Below, one piece after another: positions 150 to 13,537 of a stretch of DNA of 64,000 nt. Origin of the DNA: Pseudomonas sp. (GTDB lineage: Bacteria > Pseudomonadota > Gammaproteobacteria > Pseudomonadales > Pseudomonadaceae). Location of the stretch: positions 1-64,000 of the forward strand of contig VMRT01000010.1 in assembly GCA_007713455.1 (NCBI GenBank), given 5' to 3'. The notes beneath the pieces are model-generated. The model searched no databases. It was not told the origin of the DNA and saw only the letters and a list, made by a program, of their open reading frames with translations. A program made the position numbers and the translations under genes. Numbering within the stretch: position 1 is the first letter of the stretch; each line of letters opens with the position of its first letter.

Positions 150-292
150 ACTCAGTGACTGCTTGACGTATACCCTAACCAGACACCCCGAACTCCCGCT
201 CCAACCTGTCTGGATAGGGTCGATTTTCCAGTAATTTGGCATCTGTCCGGCTGCCTTTAAAATCTCAGCCATACACATTTCGCTGGGAAGGC
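150..292. promoter_or_regulatory. res: res-like recombination site of a Tn3-family element
   Basis: The stretch just upstream of the resolvase contains ttgacgtataccctaacc (163-180), very close to the res subsite I sequence that I recall for Tn21/Tn501 (TTGAGGCATACCCTAACC). A second, inverted-looking motif, gtctggatagggtcgattt, lies at 208-226. Resolvases of this group bind three such subsites next to tnpR, recombine at subsite I and repress their own promoter there. The exact three-subsite layout is inferred; only the first match is strong. Confidence 0.6.
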
Positions 293-295
293 AAT

Positions 296-856
296 ATGCA
301 CGGACAACGGATCGGCTACATACGGGTCAGTACGCTCGACCAGAACCCTGATCGGCAACTCGAAGGCGTTCAGGTGAGCAAGGTGTTCATCGACAAAGCC
401 TCCGGCAAGGACACACAGCGACCGCAGCTCGAAGCGTTGCTCAGTTACGTGCGCGAGGGTGACACGCTGGTCGTGCACAGCATGGATCGTCTGGCTCGTA
501 ATCTCGATGACTTGAGGCGCATGGTGCAGCAGCTCACCGGGCGGGGAGTGCGTATTGAGTTCGTGAAGGAGTCGCTGGCCTTCACCGGGGAGGATTCGCC
601 GATGGCCAACCTACTGCTTTCAGTCATGGGGGCGTTCGCGGAGTTCGAGCGGGCTTTGATTCGTGAGCGGCAACGCGAGGGTATTTCCCTGGCGAAACAG
701 CGCGGTGTCTATCGAGGGAGGAAAAAAGCGCTGAGTGACAGCCGACTCGAAGAGCTACGGCGTCGTGTTGAAGCGCGCGAACCGAAAGCCGCGCTGGCTC
801 GCGAGTTCGGCATCAGCCGGGCCACACTCTATGAGTATCTGCGGGCTCCGGCATAG
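296..856 (+). CDS. tnpR: Tn3-family serine resolvase (TnpR)
   Basis: The 186-residue protein is a small serine recombinase that resolves cointegrates formed by Tn3-family transposition. The N-terminus RIGYIRVSTLDQNPDRQLEG carries the catalytic serine (S12) and the family motifs. The central block (HSMDRLARNLDDL, GAFAEFERALIRERQREG) is the catalytic and oligomerisation region, and the C-terminus (ALAREFGISRATLYEYLR) is the DNA-binding helix-turn-helix. It is complete and close to Tn21/Tn501 TnpR from memory. The ATG at 296 is chosen because the family starts there; an in-frame earlier start at 236 would add 20 unrelated residues. In the Tn21 group tnpA follows tnpR, but here the next gene is a convergent metallopeptidase, so the transposase has been lost or lies elsewhere. 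Confidence 0.9.
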   Translation: MHGQRIGYIRVSTLDQNPDRQLEGVQVSKVFIDKASGKDTQRPQLEALLSYVREGDTLVVHSMDRLARNLDDLRRMVQQLTGRGVRIEFVKESLAFTGEDSPMANLLLSVMGAFAEFERALIRERQREGISLAKQRGVYRGRKKALSDSRLEELRRRVEAREPKAALAREFGISRATLYEYLRAPA

Positions 857-909: not shown

Positions 910-1611
910 TCAAACCCCCTCCACCTCAATGCCATGTTCGGCCAGCCAGCTCTTTCGCTGGGCGTAATCGGGCATGGCGCGCTCCAAGCGTAGCCAGAAC
1001 TCCGGGGTGTGGTGCGGCTCGTGCAGGTGCACCATCTCATGCACAACAACGTATTCGGCGATGTGCTTGGGCAGCAGGATGGTTTTCCAGTGGAAATACA
1101 ACACTGCGCCTTTTCCGCATGACCCCCAGCGATAGCCCAGGTCCTGCACGCGCACGCCGCCAGGTGTCACTTCCATACGCGCCTGGTGATTCTTGACGCG
1201 GACTGCCAGCCAGTTGCGGGCATGTTCGCTATACCAGCGGATAAAATGCTCGCGGGCGCGTGCCAGCTCGCTGCGCAGCAGGTGAAAACGCCCGGCGGTC
1301 AGCTTCAGGGGTACAGCCTGCTCGTCCACCAACTTCAGACGATAACTGCGCCCCAGATAGAGAAAGCCCTCACCATCCACATATTCCTTGGTAGGGATAG
1401 CCCGCTGCAGGCGCTCCTTCTCGGCCAGGCGCGAGTAAATCCAGAAGGTTTTTTCCGCCACAAATTCCCGCAGAGTTTGTTCATCCACGTCCGGCGGACT
1501 GGAGAGAGTCAGCGCCCCATCGCGCTCGACGGTGATCTGCAGGGTCTTGCGCCGCGTACTGCGGCGCAGCGACAACTGAAGGTCGCCGACGGTCAGTGTC
1601 TGACTGCTCAC
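910..1611 (-). CDS. YgjP/WLM-type zinc metallopeptidase domain protein (DUF45)
   Basis: The 233-residue protein carries a zinc-peptidase signature HEMVH at residues 191-195, followed by the family's third-ligand region HHTPEFW (H201), and the upstream GYRWGSCG motif typical of YgjP-like (DUF45) proteins. These are SprT-like metallopeptidase-fold proteins of uncertain substrate that are often found beside type I restriction genes. The start is a GTG at 1611 whose GTGA overlaps the hsdR stop codon, so translation is probably coupled to hsdR. This makes it the last gene of the restriction operon. The fold and zinc site are well supported; a role in restriction is inferred only from position. Confidence 0.8.
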   Translation of the reverse strand: MSSQTLTVGDLQLSLRRSTRRKTLQITVERDGALTLSSPPDVDEQTLREFVAEKTFWIYSRLAEKERLQRAIPTKEYVDGEGFLYLGRSYRLKLVDEQAVPLKLTAGRFHLLRSELARAREHFIRWYSEHARNWLAVRVKNHQARMEVTPGGVRVQDLGYRWGSCGKGAVLYFHWKTILLPKHIAEYVVVHEMVHLHEPHHTPEFWLRLERAMPDYAQRKSWLAEHGIEVEGV

Positions 1612-4600
1612 ACCCGCATCAACCTGTCATGGTTGGCGCGTGCCTGGTCGAGCATACGGTCGGCCAGCAGGCCCGCCGTGTCGGTATCCACTAACGGCGG
1701 GCGTAGGCGCATCAGGTGATCGAACAGCTGTCCGGCCAGTTCTTCCTGGGCGGCGCGTTTGCGCGGGCTCCAGATGTCACGGTGGCTTTGCAGTTCATCG
1801 ACCAGCAAATCCACCAGTTCTACCGTGACATCCTTGAGTCGCAGCAGCTCGGCAGGTTGCGCATCACGCTCAGCGCAGACGACATCCAGCAGCGTGCGCA
1901 GGAACGGTGCGTAATGCTCCGGCACGTCCAGCGGTGTGTTCTCCTCGCTCAACTGGCCGCTGCGCAGTTCGTCGATGATCTTCTGCATCTGCACCACCAA
2001 TTGATCCCACTGCTCACCCAGAGACTTGAGCAGCTCGTTCAGCCGCTCCGAGAGCTTGCGGTACAGCACTGGGTCTTCGTCGGCATGCTTGCGCACATGC
2101 GAGCGGATGGCGTGTTCCATTTCCGATGCCTTGGCGCGATCGTTGGCGCTGCGCGACAGCTCCTTCTCGAAATTGGCATCGGTCAGCTGGATCGGCGGAA
2201 TCTTTGGGTCGATACCCAACGAGATAACGTGATCGTCGATCAGCTTGCGGACCTTGACGCCGACGTCCTTGCCCAACTGCGGCAGGTCCTTGTAACGGCT
2301 GCGTGCACGGGCATGGATATAGGCCAGTCGCTTGGCATCCTTGACGAACGGCAGGCCTTCGGGACGCGGCAACACGGTATCCAGGGAGGCAAGAAACGCT
2401 TTGAGTTTTACCGTGAACTCAGCCCGTACTTTCTCCTCCGCCAGAGCGGCAATGCAGGCTTCAGCGTCTTCCAGGTTTTCGATGTCCTGACGACGTAGCA
2501 CATCGATGACGCGCAGATGCCGATCACGCAGCACCGGCACCTCATCCTTAATGCTGGTCAGCGCGCCCTCGATATCCTCGTCGGCATAGGCCGCCAAGGC
2601 TTCTCGCAGATGGTTGGCGACCCCGTAGTAATCCACCACGATGCCGCAACGCTTGCCGAAGCCGGTACGGTTGACCCGCGCAATGGCTTGCAACAGCTCG
2701 GCCTCTTTGATCGGACGGTCGAGGTACATCACGCCTTCAATGGGTGCATCGAAGCCGGTCAGCAGCATGGATTTGACGATCAGGAATGCCAGCGGATCGG
2801 CCTTGCCCGGCTGCTCGTGGTGCAGTGGCTTCTTAAAGCGCTTGATCAGCTGTTCGTGCTTGGCTCCGTCGGTCCACACCTTCCATTCGGAGGGATCGTT
2901 ATTGGTCCCGGAAATGATCGGCGCGAACTCCAGCGCTTGCAGCGTCTCGCGATAGCGCCAGGCCTGCACCCGCGCTTGCAGCTTGGGCGGGCGTTGGCAC
3001 AGGGCTTCGTCGTCGAGTGCCTTGTCAGTGGCTGGCAGGGCGTCGGCCTCTGCCAGCAATTCATCGCGGGCGGCCTGCAGCGCATGGTAATAACGCACCG
3101 CCGCTATCCGGCTGTAGGCCACCACCTGGGCCTTGTAGCCGTTGGGCAGGATGTTGGTGACATAGTGCCGGATGATGTCCCGCGCCTTGTCGGCAATCAG
3201 TGCCGGCGCGTCGAAGATATGGCCCTTGGTCGCGTACTTCTTCTTGATCAGTTCCAGTTCTTCTTGGGTGTGCTCGCGGAACAGATCCTCGAACAGCTCA
3301 TCGAGGCTGGCCCCATCCTTCACCGCACCCTGAGCCGTGCGCCCCTCGTACAGTACGGGCACCGTGGCGCCATCGGCCTCGGCTTCGCGGATGGTGTACT
3401 TATCGATAAATGCACCGAAAATCTCGTGGGTGCGTTTCTTATCGCCCATGATGATCGGCGTGCCGGTAAAACCAATACGCGCGCAGTTGGGCAGGCCGGC
3501 CAGCAGGTTCGCGTGCAGATCGCCCGCCTGGGTGCGGTGCGCCTCGTCCACCAGTACCAGAATGCTCTCGTCAGTGTTGAGTACTTCAAACGGCTTGTTC
3601 CCCTGGTAGGGAGCGCGTTTTTCAGCCGCCTTGGCAGCCGGATTTATCTCACTGATCTCAACACCGGAGGCTTCTTCTTCCAGCTCGGGGTTGCGGTACT
3701 TCTGGATGGTGGCGAATACCAGCCCCGGCCCTTTGCGCCGGGCCAGGGCTTTCACACCCGCGGTATTCGCGGCCACTTCCGGTGGCTCGCCGCTCAAGGT
3801 GGCGGTAGCGGCCAACTGGCTCTGCAGATCCTTACGGTCGGTGACCACGATCACCTTGAAGCGCCGCAGCTGTTCATCGGTACGCATCTTGCGCACCAGA
3901 AACACCATGGTCAGGCTCTTGCCCGAACCCTGGGTGTGCCAGACGATGCCGCCACGCTGGTCGCTCTCGCCATGCTGCGCGCGGGTTTGTCCGCGTTTCA
4001 GGCGACTGATGGCATGGTTCACCGCGCGATACTGCTGGTAACGGCATACCGTCTTGATGGTCTGCCCGCCCACCTGCATGAACAGCATGAAATGGCGAAT
4101 GAGATCGAGCAGATGCGCGGGCGACAACATGCCCGCAACCAAGCGCTCCTGCTCCGACAGCTTCGCCTTGCCCAGCGACTCGGCGACCACCTGCTCGCTG
4201 CAACTGCCATCCGGGCCGACTACCGTCTTCCACTGTGCGTAATGGGCAAAGCCGGCCCCGACACAGCCGACGCGAGCTTCGTCGAAGCTGCTGGCAATCA
4301 GCAGCTGCACGCTGGCGAATAGCGCCTCGTTGCCCTCGTTGTGCTCGACCTCGGCGTCCGCCTTGCGCTGGTTGCTGTAGCGGCGCAGCTGGTCCACTGC
4401 CTCGGTCAGTGGCTCGGGGATGGAAGGGCTCTTGCACTCCACCACCACCAGCGGGATACCGTTCACCAGCAACACCAGATCCGGGACGATGAACTTCTTG
4501 CCGCTGTCGTAGCCGGCGGGGCAGTTCACACGGTACTGGTTGACCACGCTGAAGCGGTTGTTGGCTGGAGTATCCCAGTCGATGTACTGGATGGTCTGCC

Positions 4601-4934
4601 CACGTCCACCATCCCAGCCCGGTAGGCCATCGACGGTGATGCCCTTGAGCAGCAGCTCGGTCGCTTTCTGGTTGGCTTCCATGAGTTTCGCCGTACCCAG
4701 GCGAGTGATGGCAGCGACCGCCTCGGACAGCCGCTCATCATCCAGCCAGGGCTGGCCGTTGCGAAGGTTTAGCGCGCGCAGCTGGTCACGCAGCAGCGCC
4801 TCCTGTATCACCTCGGAGAAACTGCCACGCCCGGTCAGTGCCGGGTCGTCGAGGCTGCCTTCTACTGGCGTCCAGCCCAGACCTTGCAGCTGCGTAACAA
4901 AGGGCTTCTCGACATCTTCCAATTCCCAACCCAC
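1608..4934 (-). CDS. hsdR: type I restriction endonuclease subunit R
   Basis: The 1108-residue motor and nuclease subunit translocates DNA by ATP hydrolysis and cleaves it far from the recognition site. The N-terminal nuclease domain shows a PD-(D/E)xK arrangement: PD at 151-152, then VVVECKSP with E166 and K168. The helicase domain has Walker A HTQGSGKS (333-340), DEAH (463-466) and GFTGTP shortly after. The C-terminus is the helical region that docks on the methylase complex. It starts at GTG 4934, preceded by a good AAGGAG eight bases upstream; no ATG fits as well. It is intact by length and motifs. It lies 178 bases downstream of darG and overlaps the metallopeptidase start by four bases. 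Confidence 0.95.
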   Translation of the reverse strand: MGWELEDVEKPFVTQLQGLGWTPVEGSLDDPALTGRGSFSEVIQEALLRDQLRALNLRNGQPWLDDERLSEAVAAITRLGTAKLMEANQKATELLLKGITVDGLPGWDGGRGQTIQYIDWDTPANNRFSVVNQYRVNCPAGYDSGKKFIVPDLVLLVNGIPLVVVECKSPSIPEPLTEAVDQLRRYSNQRKADAEVEHNEGNEALFASVQLLIASSFDEARVGCVGAGFAHYAQWKTVVGPDGSCSEQVVAESLGKAKLSEQERLVAGMLSPAHLLDLIRHFMLFMQVGGQTIKTVCRYQQYRAVNHAISRLKRGQTRAQHGESDQRGGIVWHTQGSGKSLTMVFLVRKMRTDEQLRRFKVIVVTDRKDLQSQLAATATLSGEPPEVAANTAGVKALARRKGPGLVFATIQKYRNPELEEEASGVEISEINPAAKAAEKRAPYQGNKPFEVLNTDESILVLVDEAHRTQAGDLHANLLAGLPNCARIGFTGTPIIMGDKKRTHEIFGAFIDKYTIREAEADGATVPVLYEGRTAQGAVKDGASLDELFEDLFREHTQEELELIKKKYATKGHIFDAPALIADKARDIIRHYVTNILPNGYKAQVVAYSRIAAVRYYHALQAARDELLAEADALPATDKALDDEALCQRPPKLQARVQAWRYRETLQALEFAPIISGTNNDPSEWKVWTDGAKHEQLIKRFKKPLHHEQPGKADPLAFLIVKSMLLTGFDAPIEGVMYLDRPIKEAELLQAIARVNRTGFGKRCGIVVDYYGVANHLREALAAYADEDIEGALTSIKDEVPVLRDRHLRVIDVLRRQDIENLEDAEACIAALAEEKVRAEFTVKLKAFLASLDTVLPRPEGLPFVKDAKRLAYIHARARSRYKDLPQLGKDVGVKVRKLIDDHVISLGIDPKIPPIQLTDANFEKELSRSANDRAKASEMEHAIRSHVRKHADEDPVLYRKLSERLNELLKSLGEQWDQLVVQMQKIIDELRSGQLSEENTPLDVPEHYAPFLRTLLDVVCAERDAQPAELLRLKDVTVELVDLLVDELQSHRDIWSPRKRAAQEELAGQLFDHLMRLRPPLVDTDTAGLLADRMLDQARANHDRLMRV

Positions 4935-5112
4935 AGGCCACTCCTTTTAACCCGGCCTTTATGGGAGCAACACCCCCATAACATCCATAACCCCTGCGCG
5001 GTCTCGAAGGGCGCAATTCCCAACCAGAGGGATGATCCATCCGATTCCATCCGATCAATGTACCCATGGAGCTCATAGCAGGCTCATAGAAAGCCCATAG
5101 CAGTCCATAGCG
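4935..5112. repeat. short repeats between darG and hsdR
   Basis: Immediately after the darG stop, four copies of an imperfect 10-11 base unit containing CATAG occur in tandem (CATAG at 5074, 5085, 5096 and 5106). Further on, ccataacat/ccataaccc repeats at 4975-4993. A 12-base block CAATTCCCAACC occurs at 5014-5025 and again at 4920-4931, where it covers the start of hsdR; flanking bases also partly match, which suggests a decayed duplicate of the hsdR 5' end. No gene is supported here. Confidence 0.6.
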
Positions 5113-6153
5113 TCAGGGTGCGGCAGGCTCCAGCCAGTTGCGCCGGGCCAGATGCGCCCAAGCCGTGCGGATATGCTCCGGGCGGAAGACCCGTGCTTTG
5201 CGGGGATTCCAGCTATGCACGGCGGCAATCGCCTGCTCGGCATCCGCACAATCATGGTGAGCAACCCAGTGCACTGTGGCTAGAAGCTCCATGCCATAAG
5301 GCGTTTCAAACCCCTCGATCAAATCAGCAACCATTTTCAGGCGGGGTTTGCTCGCTTCGTGACTGGCAAGGAAGGCATCAGCCTCGGCGATTGCCCCAGG
5401 CAGCAGTTCGATTTGCGCATCTGGTTTCTGGCTGTCGCCATAACCCCGGATGAAATGCCCCTCCATGACTTCCAACACCTTATTCAGGTTGTGGGCATAG
5501 GGGCCGTAGATGCCGGCCTGATATTTCAGGCGCAGTGGTTCACCGGCAGCCTGCAGGAAGTAAGCAAGTTTCTGCACCTCTAGTAGGGTCCGGCTGTAGT
5601 CCAGCGCGCCATAAGCGTCCATCAGCTTGATGAACAGTGCGCGCGCAGGCGTCATCTTCGGACGCGGTGTAGCCACCGGCATGCTACGGGCATCTGGAGC
5701 ACCGGACGGTTCGTAGAGCAGGACCCGCACCTCTGTCAGAGGGGCAAACGCCGCTTCGACCATTGGCCGGACTTCTTGCCAGTCCAGCCCTCCCAGGCCA
5801 CACCCGAGCGGCGGAATGGCAATGGAGCGAATGCCTAGACGCTGTACATCGGTGACCAGCGTATACAAGCCTGAGGAAATGTCCTCAATACGCGATTTGC
5901 CCTTCCAATGGCGTTTGGTGGGGAAATTGATGATGTAACGCGGATTTACCAGCGCACCATTGTCATGGATAAGCATCTGGCCAGGTGAAACGCGCCCAGC
6001 CTTGCAGGCGGCCTGGTATTGCGTGAAGTTGGCGGGGAAAGCCTGTTTGAACTGCAGGGCGATACCCTTGCCCATGTAACCCATGCAATTCACGGTGTTG
6101 ACCAGTGCTTCGGCATTGGCCGTCAGCAGGTTGCCCTCTGCGCTCTCGATCAT
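5113..6153 (-). CDS. darG: DarG: DNA ADP-ribosyl glycohydrolase antitoxin
   Basis: This 346-residue antitoxin reverses and blocks DarT. Residues 1 to about 155 form a macrodomain (AEGNLLTANAEALVNTVNC, then GKGIALQFK, and PPLGCGLGGLDW). The catalytic lysine of characterised DarG, in the motif NFPTKRHWK, is present at K80, the same position as in the Thermus protein from memory. Residues about 180-346 are the DarT-binding domain (LEVQKLAYFLQAAGE, YQAGIYGPYAHNLNKVLE). The start at ATG 6153 is preferred because GAGGTG lies six bases upstream; ATG 6159 and GTG 6162 are in frame but too close to that site. It begins 10 bases after the darT stop. It appears intact, so it should neutralise the upstream toxin. 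Confidence 0.92.
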   Translation of the reverse strand: MIESAEGNLLTANAEALVNTVNCMGYMGKGIALQFKQAFPANFTQYQAACKAGRVSPGQMLIHDNGALVNPRYIINFPTKRHWKGKSRIEDISSGLYTLVTDVQRLGIRSIAIPPLGCGLGGLDWQEVRPMVEAAFAPLTEVRVLLYEPSGAPDARSMPVATPRPKMTPARALFIKLMDAYGALDYSRTLLEVQKLAYFLQAAGEPLRLKYQAGIYGPYAHNLNKVLEVMEGHFIRGYGDSQKPDAQIELLPGAIAEADAFLASHEASKPRLKMVADLIEGFETPYGMELLATVHWVAHHDCADAEQAIAAVHSWNPRKARVFRPEHIRTAWAHLARRNWLEPAAP

Positions 6154-6163
6154 CGTCATCACC

Positions 6164-6814
6164 TCAGTAATACCACCGCCGCACGACTTTCACCGGAGGC
6201 TGCCAGCGTTGCGGAAAACGCTGCAGAATTTCTTCCACGCGCTGGCGCATGGCGTCGTCGTATACCGCTATCCCAGCAATCAGCGCCCAGTCCAGTTCCT
6301 GCCAGACCAGAAACTCAGCCTGTTTACGGCGCTGGCGGTCGTTGTCCTCAGGCTGGTCGGACCAGTAGCGTTCACCGACCAGCCCCCAGTCCACGGCGTC
6401 AAGTTGGGCCAGGTCATCATACCAGCCGGTGAAGCGGGCCAGCCCGTGACCGTCGGAAAACACGAAGCGGCATCCGGATTTATCTAGCGCTTCGGCTTTG
6501 GCGATCAGATAGACCAGCGGTCGCTGTCCTTCGTTATAGCCCTCGACCTGCCCCGACTTTAGCTTGAGCAGCATCACCGACAGCGGACCAAAATAGAACG
6601 GCACATAGTCATGCACCGTACCACCAGGGCCGCAGGGAATCGGATGAAGGTGACGATTAGCCTGCACGCCTATATCGTGAATGGTGCGATAAGGCAGGCC
6701 ATCATCCGGTGTCCAGTTGGGGGCGTGAATTGCGCCGCGTTGCAAAAGATGGGCAATGTTTTCGACATGTACCAGCCGATATAACAGCGTGGATTTACTA
6801 CCCGCGCTACTCAT
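6164..6814 (-). CDS. darT: DarT: DNA ADP-ribosyltransferase toxin
   Basis: The 216-residue toxin belongs to the DarT (DUF4433) family, which attaches ADP-ribose from NAD+ to thymidine or guanosine in single-stranded DNA and blocks replication. Visible family features are LLYRLVHVENI near the N-terminus (H16), VPFYFGPLSVML at 71-82, and KQAEFLVW with the likely catalytic glutamate E167. Its ATG overlaps the stop of the preceding 42-codon remnant (ATGA), and darG follows in the usual toxin-antitoxin order. DarTG systems act in phage defence. Sitting inside a type I restriction operon suggests joint expression; this coupling is inferred. Whether it modifies T or G cannot be told from sequence alone. 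Confidence 0.92.
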   Translation of the reverse strand: MSSAGSKSTLLYRLVHVENIAHLLQRGAIHAPNWTPDDGLPYRTIHDIGVQANRHLHPIPCGPGGTVHDYVPFYFGPLSVMLLKLKSGQVEGYNEGQRPLVYLIAKAEALDKSGCRFVFSDGHGLARFTGWYDDLAQLDAVDWGLVGERYWSDQPEDNDRQRRKQAEFLVWQELDWALIAGIAVYDDAMRQRVEEILQRFPQRWQPPVKVVRRWYY

Positions 6815-6939
6815 GCTTCACCAAGCTCGGCGTTGGCAAGTAGACCAGCGGCCTCGATCAGCTCGCGGTCGGGGAGCATCTTCAGGTCGCTCTTGAACTC
6901 GACGGTAAGGGTTTCGCGGGGCAGCAGGCGCTGGGTCAT
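6811..6939 (-). pseudogene. 42-codon N-terminal remnant of an AlbA_2-type ATP-binding protein
   Basis: From ATG 6939 the frame encodes 42 residues including PRETLTVEFKSDLKMLPD and ELIEAAGLLANAE, then stops at 6811. This matches the beginning of AlbA_2 (Schlafen-like) domain proteins often found between hsdS and hsdR, whose sequence normally continues from LANTEGG for several hundred residues. Here the gene ends right after LANAE, and the stop overlaps the darT start codon. It starts one base after the hsdS stop. The simplest reading is that darTG replaced the body of this gene, leaving the head as a translated leader. It could still serve to couple translation of hsdS to darT. Confidence 0.7.
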
Positions 6940-6940
6940 G

Positions 6941-8264
6941 TCAGGATCCCGTTTGTGTAGCAGCCTGCTGCACGGACTCCAGCAGCGGGGTGACGCGCAC
7001 GCGGCCGGTCAGCAGGTCGTCCAGCAGGCCGGCTTTTGCAAGCCGGAGCTTGGCGACACTCAAGCTTTCACTTTCCAGACGCCGCTCCTGGGACTGAATT
7101 TCATCGGCAATTGCCTTTGCCTCAAGCGCCGAGGGACGCGCGATGGGAATTCGTCGAACATCTCGAAGGTTTATCCCTTGCACCGCCACTCCAAGTGTAT
7201 GAGTAGCAATGAACCTGCTTGGTACCGCCATACCGAGATAGGCGCGTAGGAACCGGGCATCAGTGCCAGTAACTGCCAGCCGTGCGGTATCTTGCGTGAT
7301 GTTTGCTGAATCCAGAACGGGAGGCACAAAAGCTGTCCTGCCCACTGTTCCACGAATCGTGAACAAGAGGTCACCCGCCTTGAGGCGGGATCTGCTGTAC
7401 TCCCGATCAATCTGAGGACTGGTGAGCAACAGATCGTTGAGGTGAATCTTCCCATCGAAGATGTCCTTCACCTTTACAACCGGAACCCCGCCCGGATGCC
7501 CATAACCAGGCATCAGAATCCCGTAGACGACCGGGCGCTTCGGGTCAATCAACTGATTCAGCTCTACCGCCTCCCACTCATTCGGAATCCACCCCAGCGG
7601 TGACTCCTTGTAGAGCTGCGGCGCTTCGCTCTGTGGCGGGCGCAGTTGGCCGTCGGCGTCGATGCCACGGGTCAGCAGGTCGTGCAGCAGGCCCTGTTTG
7701 ACGGCCTTGAGCTTGTCGATCAGCGCCTCGGTTTCGCGGATGGCGGTGTCGAGGGTGTCGAGGAGTTGGGCGATGACACTTTGCTCAGCCAAGTCAGCCG
7801 GAACCTCGATAGTCGCATTGAGGTACTCCTCGAACTTGAGGTTGATGATGCCAGTGGTCTGCTGCTGGAAAGTCAGCAGCATTGGCTGACGGTAAAACCA
7901 CATCAGCTTCCGCCACAGGAATCTAGGCTCGGCCACGCGCCGGTCAGGGCGCAGGGTTTTGAAGAAGTTTGAGCAAACTGCGGGGCCTTGATGCTCGACA
8001 GCATCGAAAAATGCAACCCGCCCTACAGGTTTGTCAGGCCCGCCACCGGAGCCTTCCAACAAAATGTCGCCATCTTCCAGTTGCCGACTCGTCAGCTTGC
8101 CAATGGGGAGGCGTCGCAGAGCGCCAGAGCCAATGACGTGACCGTCATCGTCAATATCGGTAGCGCGCAGAACGTGAGCATTTCCTGGCAGAGGCTCCGC
8201 ACCCCACTCGCCTGCAAAGCTTTCTGCCAAGCACTCCCGGATGGATCGGGTAGACCAAGAAATC

Positions 8265-8272
<8 letters not shown>
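6941..8272 (-). CDS. hsdS: type I restriction-modification specificity subunit S
   Basis: The 443-residue protein determines the DNA sequence recognised by the HsdM methylase and HsdR nuclease. It has the standard two-repeat layout: a first target-recognition domain, a central conserved helix ([20 protein letters not shown] then [15 protein letters not shown] at about 165-200), a second target-recognition domain beginning around [10 protein letters not shown], and a distal helix near the C-terminus ([19 protein letters not shown]). Its ATG overlaps the hsdM stop by eight bases. It is full length. Recognition domains vary widely between strains, so the target sequence cannot be predicted here. 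Confidence 0.93.
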
Positions 8273-10763
<2,491 letters not shown>

Positions 10764-11157
10764 GCTGAATCCCTGATGAGCGCCGTCGCGGGCGCCTTTA
10801 TTGGTGGCATAAATGCCGGGGATTCTAACCCAAGCCAGGTGCTGGCCAGCGGCTGGTGAGTTTGATTTCGAGAATGGGGCTAGGCCGATGCAGCGCAAAC
10901 CAAGCCGGACACGATCACTGCTAATCTCTATTCTTTTTTGAAGTTTTCGGTGGTACAGGTGCGACAAGGGGGACAAGCAGGACTGGCATGGGCTGAAGTT
11001 GTATCTCGTAGCTCGGAGGCGGGTGGTACAGGCGGTACAAGAGGCTGGCGCTGTACCACCTGTATCCCGCTTCCTTCGGGAGGGCGGTACAGCCAAAAGC
11101 CCCATAACTTGGGACTGTACCCCTTGTATCACGAGTCCCGCGTGGAAATGCTTTGGT
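10764..11157. repeat. 394-base intergenic region with GGTACA-type paired repeats
   Basis: No gene is supported. The region holds several paired copies of a short motif: tggtacaggtgcgacaagg (10951-10969), tggtacaggcggtacaaga (11024-11042), and inverted forms ctgtaccacctgtatcccg (11051-11069) and ctgtaccccttgtatcacg (11115-11133), plus a single ggcggtacagcc at 11084-11095. Each pair places two GTACA/GATACA units about nine bases apart. The arrangement looks like binding sites for a DNA-binding protein or an iteron-like array next to the DUF927 gene. The part nearest hsdM should also contain the hsd operon promoter, but I see no convincing -35/-10 pair. Confidence 0.6.
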
Positions 11158-12942
11158 TCAGTCGGGACGCGAAAGGAGCTCGGGGTTGATCCAGTAGAAG
11201 CGGTCTTTACCTCCCTCTGGGAGCCGCTTTTGTGCCTGATTTTTACCAGGCTCACGCTTGGCAATAGCACCGACAGAATCTAGAGCGCGCACTACGCGCC
11301 CCAGATCGTAGCCCTTTGCGGCTTCTTCTAGCCCTGAGCGATTAAACAAGTACAAGCGGCTCCCATCAGCGGCCTCTTCCCACAGACCAGCCCGATCTCG
11401 AACAGCGGGGCTACCGACTGCGGCGCTTTGGAAGCGCGTTTCTGCGTGGCGGGCGATAAAGTTGCTGATGCTATCCAGGACCTTTCGGTTTTCGCTTGGG
11501 CCTTCTCCTCTGACAGCACGCCAAGAGGCAAACAGCTCTAGCATCGCTTCACGAGCTGCACCGGCCGGCAGGGGCAGGATGCCAAAGCTGATAGCCAGTT
11601 CGCCGGTCATTGCTACCAGCGCAAAGCGTTCAGCAGCTCGGCTTTCCTGGCCGCTGCAGCACGGGTACTGATCGCGAAATTTCTCCAGCAGATCAGACAA
11701 GTGGCAAAATTCCTCGCTTTCAATGAGCCTGCGAACGAACTCCGGGCCGGCGTGGCCATAATGGGTCATGCTGCCCTTCCTGATGGCATCCGAGAATCGT
11801 CTGCCGTCTTCCATTCCATGCAGGTTGTCCCATGCGCCATGAGTACGGTAAGCGGAAATATCCAACAGCCGAATCTCCTGTCCGGCACGGATGCGTTGAC
11901 CGCCTTCGGCCATAAAGGCACCAAGTCCCAGTTCGCCGGTAGAGAACAGCATGATCCGCCAGCGCTTTGTCTTCTTGGCTGACCCGCTGCGGGTGGCTCG
12001 CGTTTTTCCAGTCCCGTTAGCTAGTGCGTAAACAACTGCACCAACCTCGCGCGCGTCTGCTTCGCCTATTTCGTCGAGAGCCAAAATGGTGTCATTTCGC
12101 TCGTTGGCAATACCTTCCAACCCGTTCCCGGTAGCAAGCCAGGTTCGTAAGAATTTTTCTCCGTGCCCCCAAACGGAGGCACCGGCAATGGTGGCGATCG
12201 TTTTTCCGGTGCTCGAATCTCCGACTAGGTGAAAGCCACCACCTTTCATCTGAACATGAAAAAGAATGGGCCCGGCTAGAGATGTACATATGCTTAACAG
12301 CAGCAGAGGATTGCCAGCGCACATGCTGCCAATGCTGCTTTGCCAGCCATGCAGCGTCCCTCCGACACGGTAGTCGTCCTGCGTGGCGTCTTCACTCTGG
12401 TAAACCGCCTGGCCCTCACCGATATTCTGGCGCGGCATGATGAACAGCTTGTCGCCATGCCAGCCTGTCTCTGTTGCGGCAATCACGCGAGCTGAAGGGC
12501 GCTGACCAGCGATAAACGCGGTGACTTTCGTGCGGTGTTCGTATGAGACATCCAGGCCCATGGTGAGCAGGGTGCCGAGGATCGAGTCGCTTTTGCCCGC
12601 GAGCAGCAGGTTCGGCATGGCCCACTTTCGTTCCTGTCCGTCCAAATTAATGAAACTGATCAGGCGGCCGTAATCGGTGCTCTGCAAGCTGCGAGTGATG
12701 GCCTCCACCTCAAGAGGGCCGCAAATCCACTCGTGAGTGCTCTGCTCGCCGAGCTTAGAGTCCCAAGTGCTATGTAGCCAGACGCCAGGACGAAGCCTTT
12801 GACCATCGTGCCAGATCTCTTCGTACTGCACGCTGAAGCCGTTACTCGGGATAGTGGCGTGTTTCTTATCCATTGAGGGTATGGCGGTGACGTTCTTGGC
12901 CGGGCTGGGTAGCACGCTGGCCTGCTTTTCTGCAGTTGGCAT
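11158..12942 (-). CDS. DUF927 domain ATPase of a mobile element
   Basis: This 594-residue protein has a DUF927 (superfamily II helicase/primase-associated) layout: an N-terminal region with [15 protein letters not shown], a Walker A motif GDSSTGKT about one third of the way in, Walker [12 protein letters not shown], and the arginine-rich [19 protein letters not shown] block. DUF927 proteins are typical of integrated elements and phage satellites, where they probably act in replication. ATG 12942 is preferred because GAGGAG lies eight bases upstream; an in-frame start at 12987 has none. The AlpA-like gene lies upstream on the same strand. No primase or replication protein accompanies it, so it may be a leftover of a larger element. 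Confidence 0.85.
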
Positions 12943-13066
12943 AAAGCGCTCCTCATTTTTCGGGCGCAAGGGAGCCCGCAAAGCCATAAATGACTGGCTT
13001 CGATAGAAAAAAAGATTGGGATAGCCCTCTAGACGGCTGTGGCTCGATTAGAGGGCGAGGCGGGCG

Positions 13067-13240
13067 TCAGGCTTCGAGCGTGAGGAAGTGTTCAACGTCC
13101 CTGCGTACCCACAAAAGGCGCCGCCCAAAATGGCGTGGTTGCGGAAAACCGGGGTTTTGTCGCATACGCCAGAGGGTCGTGCTGCTGCAGCGCAGCAGCT
13201 GACAGAGCTCGGCGCTAGTCAGGAAGATTTCGTGTGGCAT
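13067..13240 (-). CDS. AlpA-family excisionase/transcriptional regulator
   Basis: The 57-residue protein is a winged helix-turn-helix DNA-binding protein of the AlpA/MerR-like excisionase group: LTSAELCQLLRCSSTTLWRM is the helix-turn-helix, followed by PGFPQPRHFGRRLLWVRRDV. These proteins activate integrase or excision genes in prophages and islands. The ATG at 13240 has AAGGAG nine bases upstream; the frame is open for 54 codons further upstream but without similarity. It lies 222 bases from the tRNA-Thr 3' end and upstream of the DUF927 gene. The integrase that normally sits here is absent. Confidence 0.8.
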   Translation of the reverse strand: MPHEIFLTSAELCQLLRCSSTTLWRMRQNPGFPQPRHFGRRLLWVRRDVEHFLTLEA

Positions 13241-13419
13241 GGCAGGTGCTCCTTGTGATGTGTAGAAACACTGTGCCGTTCTGTGAAAGCTTTTTGGGCT
13301 GGAATTCGACCACATTCTTGTAGGTTTAGGATTTCGCCACGATGGGTCAGGGAATCGCTTCAGTTGTCGACTGATGCACAGCTCCGACGATGTGTTGAGC
13401 AAAGTGTTGAGCAGAAACG

Positions 13420-13461: not shown

Positions 13462-13537
<76 letters not shown>

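Follow-up and report, generated by a model that had tools for sequence, protein, structure and literature searches.

A gene encoding a DUF927 protein in a Pseudomonas genome is followed by a dense series of short repeats, and the question raised by this locus is what these repeats do and which protein reads them. In an earlier note on the window, i.e. the whole 64,000-nucleotide stretch that was analyzed (contig VMRT01000010.1, positions 1 to 64,000), at least four paired sites in both orientations had been described next to this gene. All four pairs were present at a 9-bp pitch (10952-10966 and 11025-11039 on the plus strand, 11052-11066 and 11116-11130 on the minus strand), but the pattern that had been given for them, GGTACAGG(C/T)GGTACAAG, occurred in one exact copy (11025-11041), the other three pairs being degenerate (GGTACAGGTGCGACA, GATACAGGTGGTACA and GATACAAGGGGTACA). 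Closer examination revealed four sites that had been overlooked (sites 1, 4, 9 and 10 in Table 1), and their addition to the pairs completed a layout of 12 sites at 9-bp pitch with six sites per mirrored half, ten of the 12 carrying no more than one mismatch. The first of these sites lies 18 bp beyond the DUF927 stop codon.

Six exact copies of the word GGTACA were located inside 170 bp (10952 to 11121 of the window). In the 320 bp beyond the stop codon of DUF927, the most frequent 6-mer likewise occurred six times, whereas over 200 dinucleotide shuffles the maximum averaged 2.7 (p=0.005), and the 64-kb window contained 22 copies of GGTACA versus 9.9 expected, a number that none of 100 shuffles reached. 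When the paired pattern was searched in the window's own genome with up to one mismatch, seven matches were obtained, three of them at the array, versus nine for a backwards control pattern, so that the clustering alone is special and not the genome-wide count. Since the words are clustered, oriented and held at a fixed pitch, an origin of the array in base composition or simple repeats was considered and dropped. In the window, the GC content of 30-bp segments from 10940 to 11149 (the array itself) was 0.50-0.67, and the AT-rich stretch that may serve as unwinding site lies outside the array.

Table 1. Features of the DUF927 locus, of the island around it and of loci with serial arrays (positions refer to the window unless a locus is named)
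Feature	Position	Strand	Remark
Iteron site 1	11134..11139	-	GGGACT, degenerate, 2 mismatches; template position 0
Iteron site 2	11125..11130	-	GATACA
Iteron site 3	11116..11121	-	GGTACA
Iteron site 4, single inverted	11086..11091	+	GGTACA
Iteron site 5	11061..11066	-	GATACA
Iteron site 6	11052..11057	-	GGTACA
Iteron site 7	11034..11039	+	GGTACA
Iteron site 8	11025..11030	+	GGTACA
Iteron site 9, single inverted	11000..11005	-	GATACA
Iteron site 10	10970..10975	+	GGGACA
Iteron site 11	10961..10966	+	GCGACA, 2 mismatches
Iteron site 12	10952..10957	+	GGTACA
AT-rich stretch, candidate unwinding site	10920..10949	.	GC 0.30; just beyond last iteron
DUF927 gene, predicted replication-initiator helicase	11158..12987	-	PF06048 E 2.4e-79; fold of Cch, SaPIbov1 Rep
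Wing and preceding loop, codons 573-603	11179..11271	-	patch tracking the iteron word
AlpA/excisionase-like gene	13067..13240	-	HTH_17 in longer frame 13067-13402; phrog_66
Attachment repeat (tRNA-Thr 3' end)	13462..13508	-	repeated exactly (47 bp) on contig C36
Integrase of the window's island	L260:12163-13563		PHROGs match, E 2.9e-26
Type I restriction-modification genes, DarTG pair between hsdR and hsdS	1608-10763		island cargo
Resolvase gene	236-856		at contig end (start of contig C24)
Kushneria avicenniae	L268:16424-18358		three serial arrays (GGT, GCA, GGA) downstream of one DUF927 gene
Kushneria avicenniae	L270:17592-18226		GCA and GGA arrays after another DUF927 gene
Salinicola MAG	L100:4404-6198		GCA and GGA arrays

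DUF927 loci for comparison were collected by alignment-based contig scans, from which the best 80 of 223 in genome contigs and the best 80 of 180 in viral contigs were taken, so that the sample leans to near relatives; a query with the single protein returned no locus in genome contigs and one in viral contigs. Out of 237 loci, 233 had a match, 223 included the C-terminus as well as 320 bp downstream, and 173 remained once copies were removed. With the best 80 of 223 and 80 of 180 included in this sample, a significant array of an NNNACA word was present within 320 bp downstream in 137 of the 173 distinct loci. One such word was present four times or more downstream in 139 of 173 loci, compared to three of 171 at 480-800 bp downstream and none of 165 upstream. 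Twelve words were called, eight of them in at least two loci. Among the 137 loci the letters preceding ACA were GGA (63), GCA (30), GTA (15), GGG (13), GTT (5) and GCC (3), followed by GGT and GTG with two loci each and AAG, ATG, GTC and CCG with one each; the nearly self-complementary TGTAACA renders the strand and the GTA/GTT call ambiguous (L208, L228 and L231). The word call was restricted to ACA tails and arrays of other kinds, e.g. GGGAACCG, were missed; another significant 6-mer was present in nine of the 36 loci uncalled for NNNACA. A strict criterion of at least five exact copies with two pitch pairs recorded an array in 95 of 173 loci and did not pick up the one in the window. Within 320 bp, 27 of the 173 loci lacked any significantly repeated word; ten of these carried an array further out and 17 had none in the stretch examined, the latter including six fused DUF927 proteins as well as pHS87b and its copy L167. 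The word GGTACA was absent beside relatives with 68% identity, which carried an array of the same design built from another word. The absence of the motif beside close homologues, which the earlier note had put forward as refuting evidence, is thus misleading, because the word differs while the array layout persists.

The DUF927 protein of the window (609 aa) matched PF06048 with 267.4 bits against a cut-off of 22.6, and scored 68.9 bits with NCBIfam NF047345 (SCCmec Cch1 equivalog), below the 700-bit cut-off of this model. DUF927 was its only domain, and the D5_N and DUF5906 domains of P4 alpha-type proteins were not detected. SaPIbov1 Rep and SCCmec Cch are its solved relatives. The AlphaFold model (pLDDT 87.0) had Cch (5dgk, E 3.0e-24) and SaPIbov1 Rep (8tch, E 1.2e-22) as top Foldseek matches, with MCM helicases among the next structural matches, and the fold shared with the two top matches takes in the modeled C-terminal winged helix. 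The model of the C-terminal domain (pLDDT 84.6) resembled 8tch with a Z score of 10.3 and 5dgk with 8.8. By these models the DUF927 protein is a predicted replication helicase of the Cch/SaPIbov1 Rep type. Among DNA-bound folds, that of TcpK (Z 9.5 without and 9.3 with DNA) came nearest to the C-terminal domain; TcpK is described as inserting its beta-wing into the major groove to read the 9-nt boxes of the pCW3 oriT (5vfx; PMC6137059). This resemblance could make the array a transfer origin or relaxosome site for a TcpK-like winged helix, a reading that we consider extremely unlikely, since the winged helix of the window belongs to a Rep/Cch-type helicase and general annotation placed no relaxase among the genes annotated here. 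As described, TcpK is a free-standing dimer involved in conjugative transfer, unlike the DUF927 protein, and the likeness is one of fold.

Among close relatives, the word tracks the beta-wing residues of the C-terminal winged helix. A quick tree calculated for 100 rows from residues 66-540, i.e. with the wing excluded, implied at least 32 word changes. In pairs with a helicase identity of at least 97%, the patch formed by residues 573-603 was 0.95 identical if the word was the same (219 pairs) and 0.72 if it differed (24 pairs), with corresponding values of 0.96 versus 0.92 for region 441-571. In the model this patch corresponds to the wing (strands 585-588 and 594-600) with its preceding loop. 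In pairs below 50% helicase identity, patches were no closer with the same word than with different words (0.23 versus 0.26 and 0.35 versus 0.33). Within clusters, columns 586 (0.74-0.76) and 594 (0.62-0.79) explained most of the word entropy, and columns outside the wing also explained 0.4-0.5. Column 586 contained N with GCA and K with GGA in five of five independent pairs, too few for p 0.05 to be attainable. Of the 14 best columns, 13 were situated within 542-596. Five wing positions, chosen on the same data, gave the right word in 86 of 95 rows and, if neighbours were limited to those below 75% helicase identity, in 67 of 95, compared to at most 70 and 46 of 95, respectively, for 300 random five-column sets and 41 for a majority-word guess. 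The correlation could be a mere reflection of relatedness without recognition, considering that the independent GCA/GGA pairs, all on well-supported branches, number only five and that the column-entropy shuffles ignore kinship inside clusters. We regard this as quite unlikely, as below 75% identity neighbours in the helicase domain predicted the word in 21 of 95 rows versus 63-67 for wing neighbours, and mosaic pairs switch both patch and word on near-identical backbones.

In a later test, 13 loci were scanned further out, the wings of the loci without a nearby array having been listed beforehand. L025 and L026 had no array and L100 already possessed a nearby one, and in the ten others, which are related and therefore not independent, the nearest outer cluster (approximately 1.0-1.8 kb downstream) was composed of the wing-predicted word in nine cases. 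KN-Y wings were accompanied by GCA outer arrays (L075, L099, L101 and L126) and KKYRLPGGGM wings by GGA outer arrays (L095, L097, L107, L109 and L122). L099 is a weak case, its seven copies being scattered and the strict criterion recording no array in its longer stretch, and L118 is the exception, its nearest array consisting of GGT against the wing prediction.

Some near-identical elements differ mainly in a stretch of approximately 350 bp that holds the wing and the array. L011 (GGGG) and L012 (GGTG) are 99.7% identical in the helicase region; in 50-bp bins their identity was 0.92-1.00 up to 100 bp before the stop codon, fell to 0.60-0.67 between that point and +149, rose to 0.79-0.80 as far as +249 and was back at 0.94-1.00 over +250 to +549, past which L011 diverges, from L013 as well. 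The dip was repeated between L013 and L012, it was followed by partial recovery in L049/L055, was broader in L140/L141 and took the form of divergence without recovery in L214/L228. L032, which has the word of L012, was 0.74-0.90 identical to L012 and 0.59-0.73 to L011 between -100 and +199, its gene body being about equally distant from both. A survey of the 416 pairs with 95% helicase identity (289 same-word and 127 different-word), from which 60 of each kind were drawn, found an identity drop of at least 0.15 in 41 of 55 usable different-word pairs, 28 of them with recovery, and in six of 60 same-word pairs.

These exchanges also bear on a regulatory role for the repeats. The array has DUF927 on one side and hsdM on the other, and DUF927 in turn adjoins an AlpA-like gene, an arrangement that would suit an operator through which AlpA or another element regulator controls DUF927 or the restriction genes beyond. 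Such an operator is very unlikely, considering that the array was 3' of DUF927 in 137 of 173 loci with differing genes beyond it, and that word changes accompany the DUF927 wing even in near-identical pairs. The AlpA-like protein, which had been suggested as one of two proteins that might bind the array, is not supported as reader, as tblastn with the 57-aa AlpA of the window identified no homologue around two such arrays (best E 0.17 in two stretches of approximately 30 kb, G032 and G003). On sequence grounds, the suggestion that the repeats are sites for a replication protein encoded by the element has the best support, the likely reader being the DUF927 protein.

The surroundings of the array resemble an integrative island, with the AlpA/excisionase-like gene and tRNA-Thr upstream of the DUF927 gene. 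The last 47 bp of tRNA-Thr are repeated exactly at C36:123957-124003, on a contig that is not joined to that of the window in the assembly. An integrase, recognized by PHROGs and by neither Pfam nor NCBIfam, is encoded approximately 160 bp inside the C36 repeat; the combination of a direct repeat of a tRNA 3' end with an integrase that defines tRNA islands is thus present. The resolvase gene at the contig end is probably part of a Tn3-like transposon that would have caused the assembly break inside the island. From the C36 repeat with its integrase and the contig break at the resolvase, we propose that the island extends from the integrase to the tRNA, probably in the order integrase end ... 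hsdR, darTG, hsdS, hsdM, array, DUF927, AlpA, tRNA. In a circular form the attachment site would be flanked by the integrase and AlpA-DUF927.

It is very probable, as judged from comparison of the sequences, that the array represents the replication origin of this integrative island and that, read by the DUF927 protein, it forms with this initiator a specificity cassette that can be exchanged. The features computed here, namely the array, its conservation, the layout in a subset of loci, the association of word and wing in close relatives and the mosaic pairs, would fit a mechanism in which the island is excised at tRNA-Thr and the C-terminal winged helix of DUF927 binds the iterons, chiefly via its beta-wing. 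The iteron word, GGTACA in the window, would be composed of variable letters ahead of a fixed ACA, the six sites per mirrored half could seat two head-to-head hexamers, and these would melt the DNA for replication to start. If roughly the final 100 bp of the gene were swapped along with the array, wing and word would then be altered at once. Only tentatively do we extend this to a beta-wing code in which swaps of wing and array create mutually blind replicons, complete foreign-word arrays collected by some elements (GGT, GCA and GGA in Kushneria) titrate rival initiators or let several fire, and two opposed hexamers find in the dyad a site for each subunit.

The 12-site layout was formulated as a template (+ + + at 0, 9 and 18, - at 48, + + at 73 and 82, then the mirror image) with a tolerance of 1 bp shift and one mismatch. 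All 12 positions were matched by 14 loci, comprising Pseudomonas-type arrays with the words GTG (2), GGA (1) and GCC (1) as well as ten represented by the Salmonella-record locus L029 and its IMG/VR relatives with the words GTA and GTT. The window matched at ten of the 12 positions, the remaining two being occupied by GGGACT and GCGACA. Using 300 templates with shuffled gaps and strands, the best fits for eight loci were 7 to 9, with 7 for the window. A fit of at least eight positions was confined to 26 of 137 loci. Exact sites were significantly mirror-symmetric in 24 of 114 loci, and those of the window had no such symmetry (p 1.0); as a rule for all arrays, mirror symmetry was rejected at 24 of 114. 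Where the dyad is present, its six sites per half may correspond to the subunits of a hexamer, with two hexamers seated on it.

Phage P4 provides a reason to place the start of replication elsewhere. Its type 1 iterons, some at 9-bp pitch and with an ACA end on one strand, likewise lie just past the initiator gene, but its alpha protein contains D5_N and DUF5906 and no DUF927, and P4 has a second iteron region, ori. The array of the window might accordingly be a second replication region required in cis, with the true start at another position in the island, in the way that P4 has a separate ori1 in addition to crr, the 9-bp-pitch iterons just 3' of alpha. We consider this unlikely, given that only one cluster of the own word was present in the stretches examined of the window, whose island is incomplete, and of L027, L028, L029, L063, L261 and L263, whereas P4 has two.

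An origin at the array agrees with what is known of related initiators. SaPIbov1 Rep and SCCmec Cch have the same fold and belong to the same family, and the SaPI origin is also made up of short iterons 3' of the initiator gene; they differ from the window in their hosts and share approximately 17% identity with its protein in the structural alignment. SaPI Rep is described as recognizing iterons directly downstream of its own gene via its C-terminal domain (PMC7581432). Gram-negative PICIs are reported to have iterons immediately 3' of the replication gene, with the sequences given element by element and one replicon tested in E. coli (PMC6092414). The window shares this position of the iteron region, but in PICIs, as described, two iteron sets flank an AT-rich region, whereas the AT-rich stretch of the window is outside the array. 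For PLEs, the DNA-binding domain of the initiator and the origin are reported to covary in the RepA-ori pair and to be swapped as a module, only cognate pairs replicating, and a phage nuclease that mimics the initiator may select for such swaps (PMC8263062). The PLE initiator as described is an unrelated RepA_N protein with semi-palindromic iterons of approximately 30 bp, unlike the helicase beta-wing and the 6-7-bp words, twelve of them called, of the DUF927 loci. According to these sources, origins 3' of such initiators (SaPIs and PICIs) and swapped initiator-origin modules (PLEs) are already in print. For the wing code, the 12-site dyad and the multi-word elements no report was found in the open-licence literature, where PMC7581432 was the one paper listed that combined DUF927 with iterons; subscription journals and preprints were outside this search, and their novelty is therefore provisional.

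How an initiator can change its DNA specificity without killing the replicon is an old question, for which near-isogenic elements such as L011 and L012 offer a ready-made test. A working code, if true, would allow satellites and islands to be sorted by compatibility group with nothing but their sequence, and it would show what a defence factor targeting the origin must recognize. The six-plus-six dyad directly predicts the way in which an origin would seat two hexameric helicases.

Not every DUF927 element follows this arrangement. No array was found within 320 bp for pHS87b (L025), L167, L026, L163 and six fused proteins. The latter (L019, L021, L022, L023, L067 and L068) are DUF927 proteins of 950-990 aa in genomes of the window's family. 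Over its whole length of 11.2 kb pHS87b had no NNNACA cluster, nor did its copy L167. The circular form of pHS87b is reported to outnumber the integrated form about twofold, and its replication genes are called unknown in the same source (PMC4739549); the DUF927 gene is a candidate for this role. Being abundant as a circle yet devoid of an NNNACA cluster, pHS87b would possess an origin of another kind.

No claim is made that co-resident elements avoid the same word, as differing words in six of eight grouped genomes are about what is expected from the word frequencies by estimate. Three of the 173 loci, from Kushneria and Salinicola, carried two or three arrays with different words in series (Table 1), and three small ORFs tried from between serial arrays had no Pfam match. 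These foreign-word arrays may be decoys, relics or spare origins. The five Kushneria arrays share one backbone, with 72-79% identity between arrays of different words and 98% and 88% within a word, and over twelve aligned iterons a GGA array and the GGT array differed at 12 of 72 bases.
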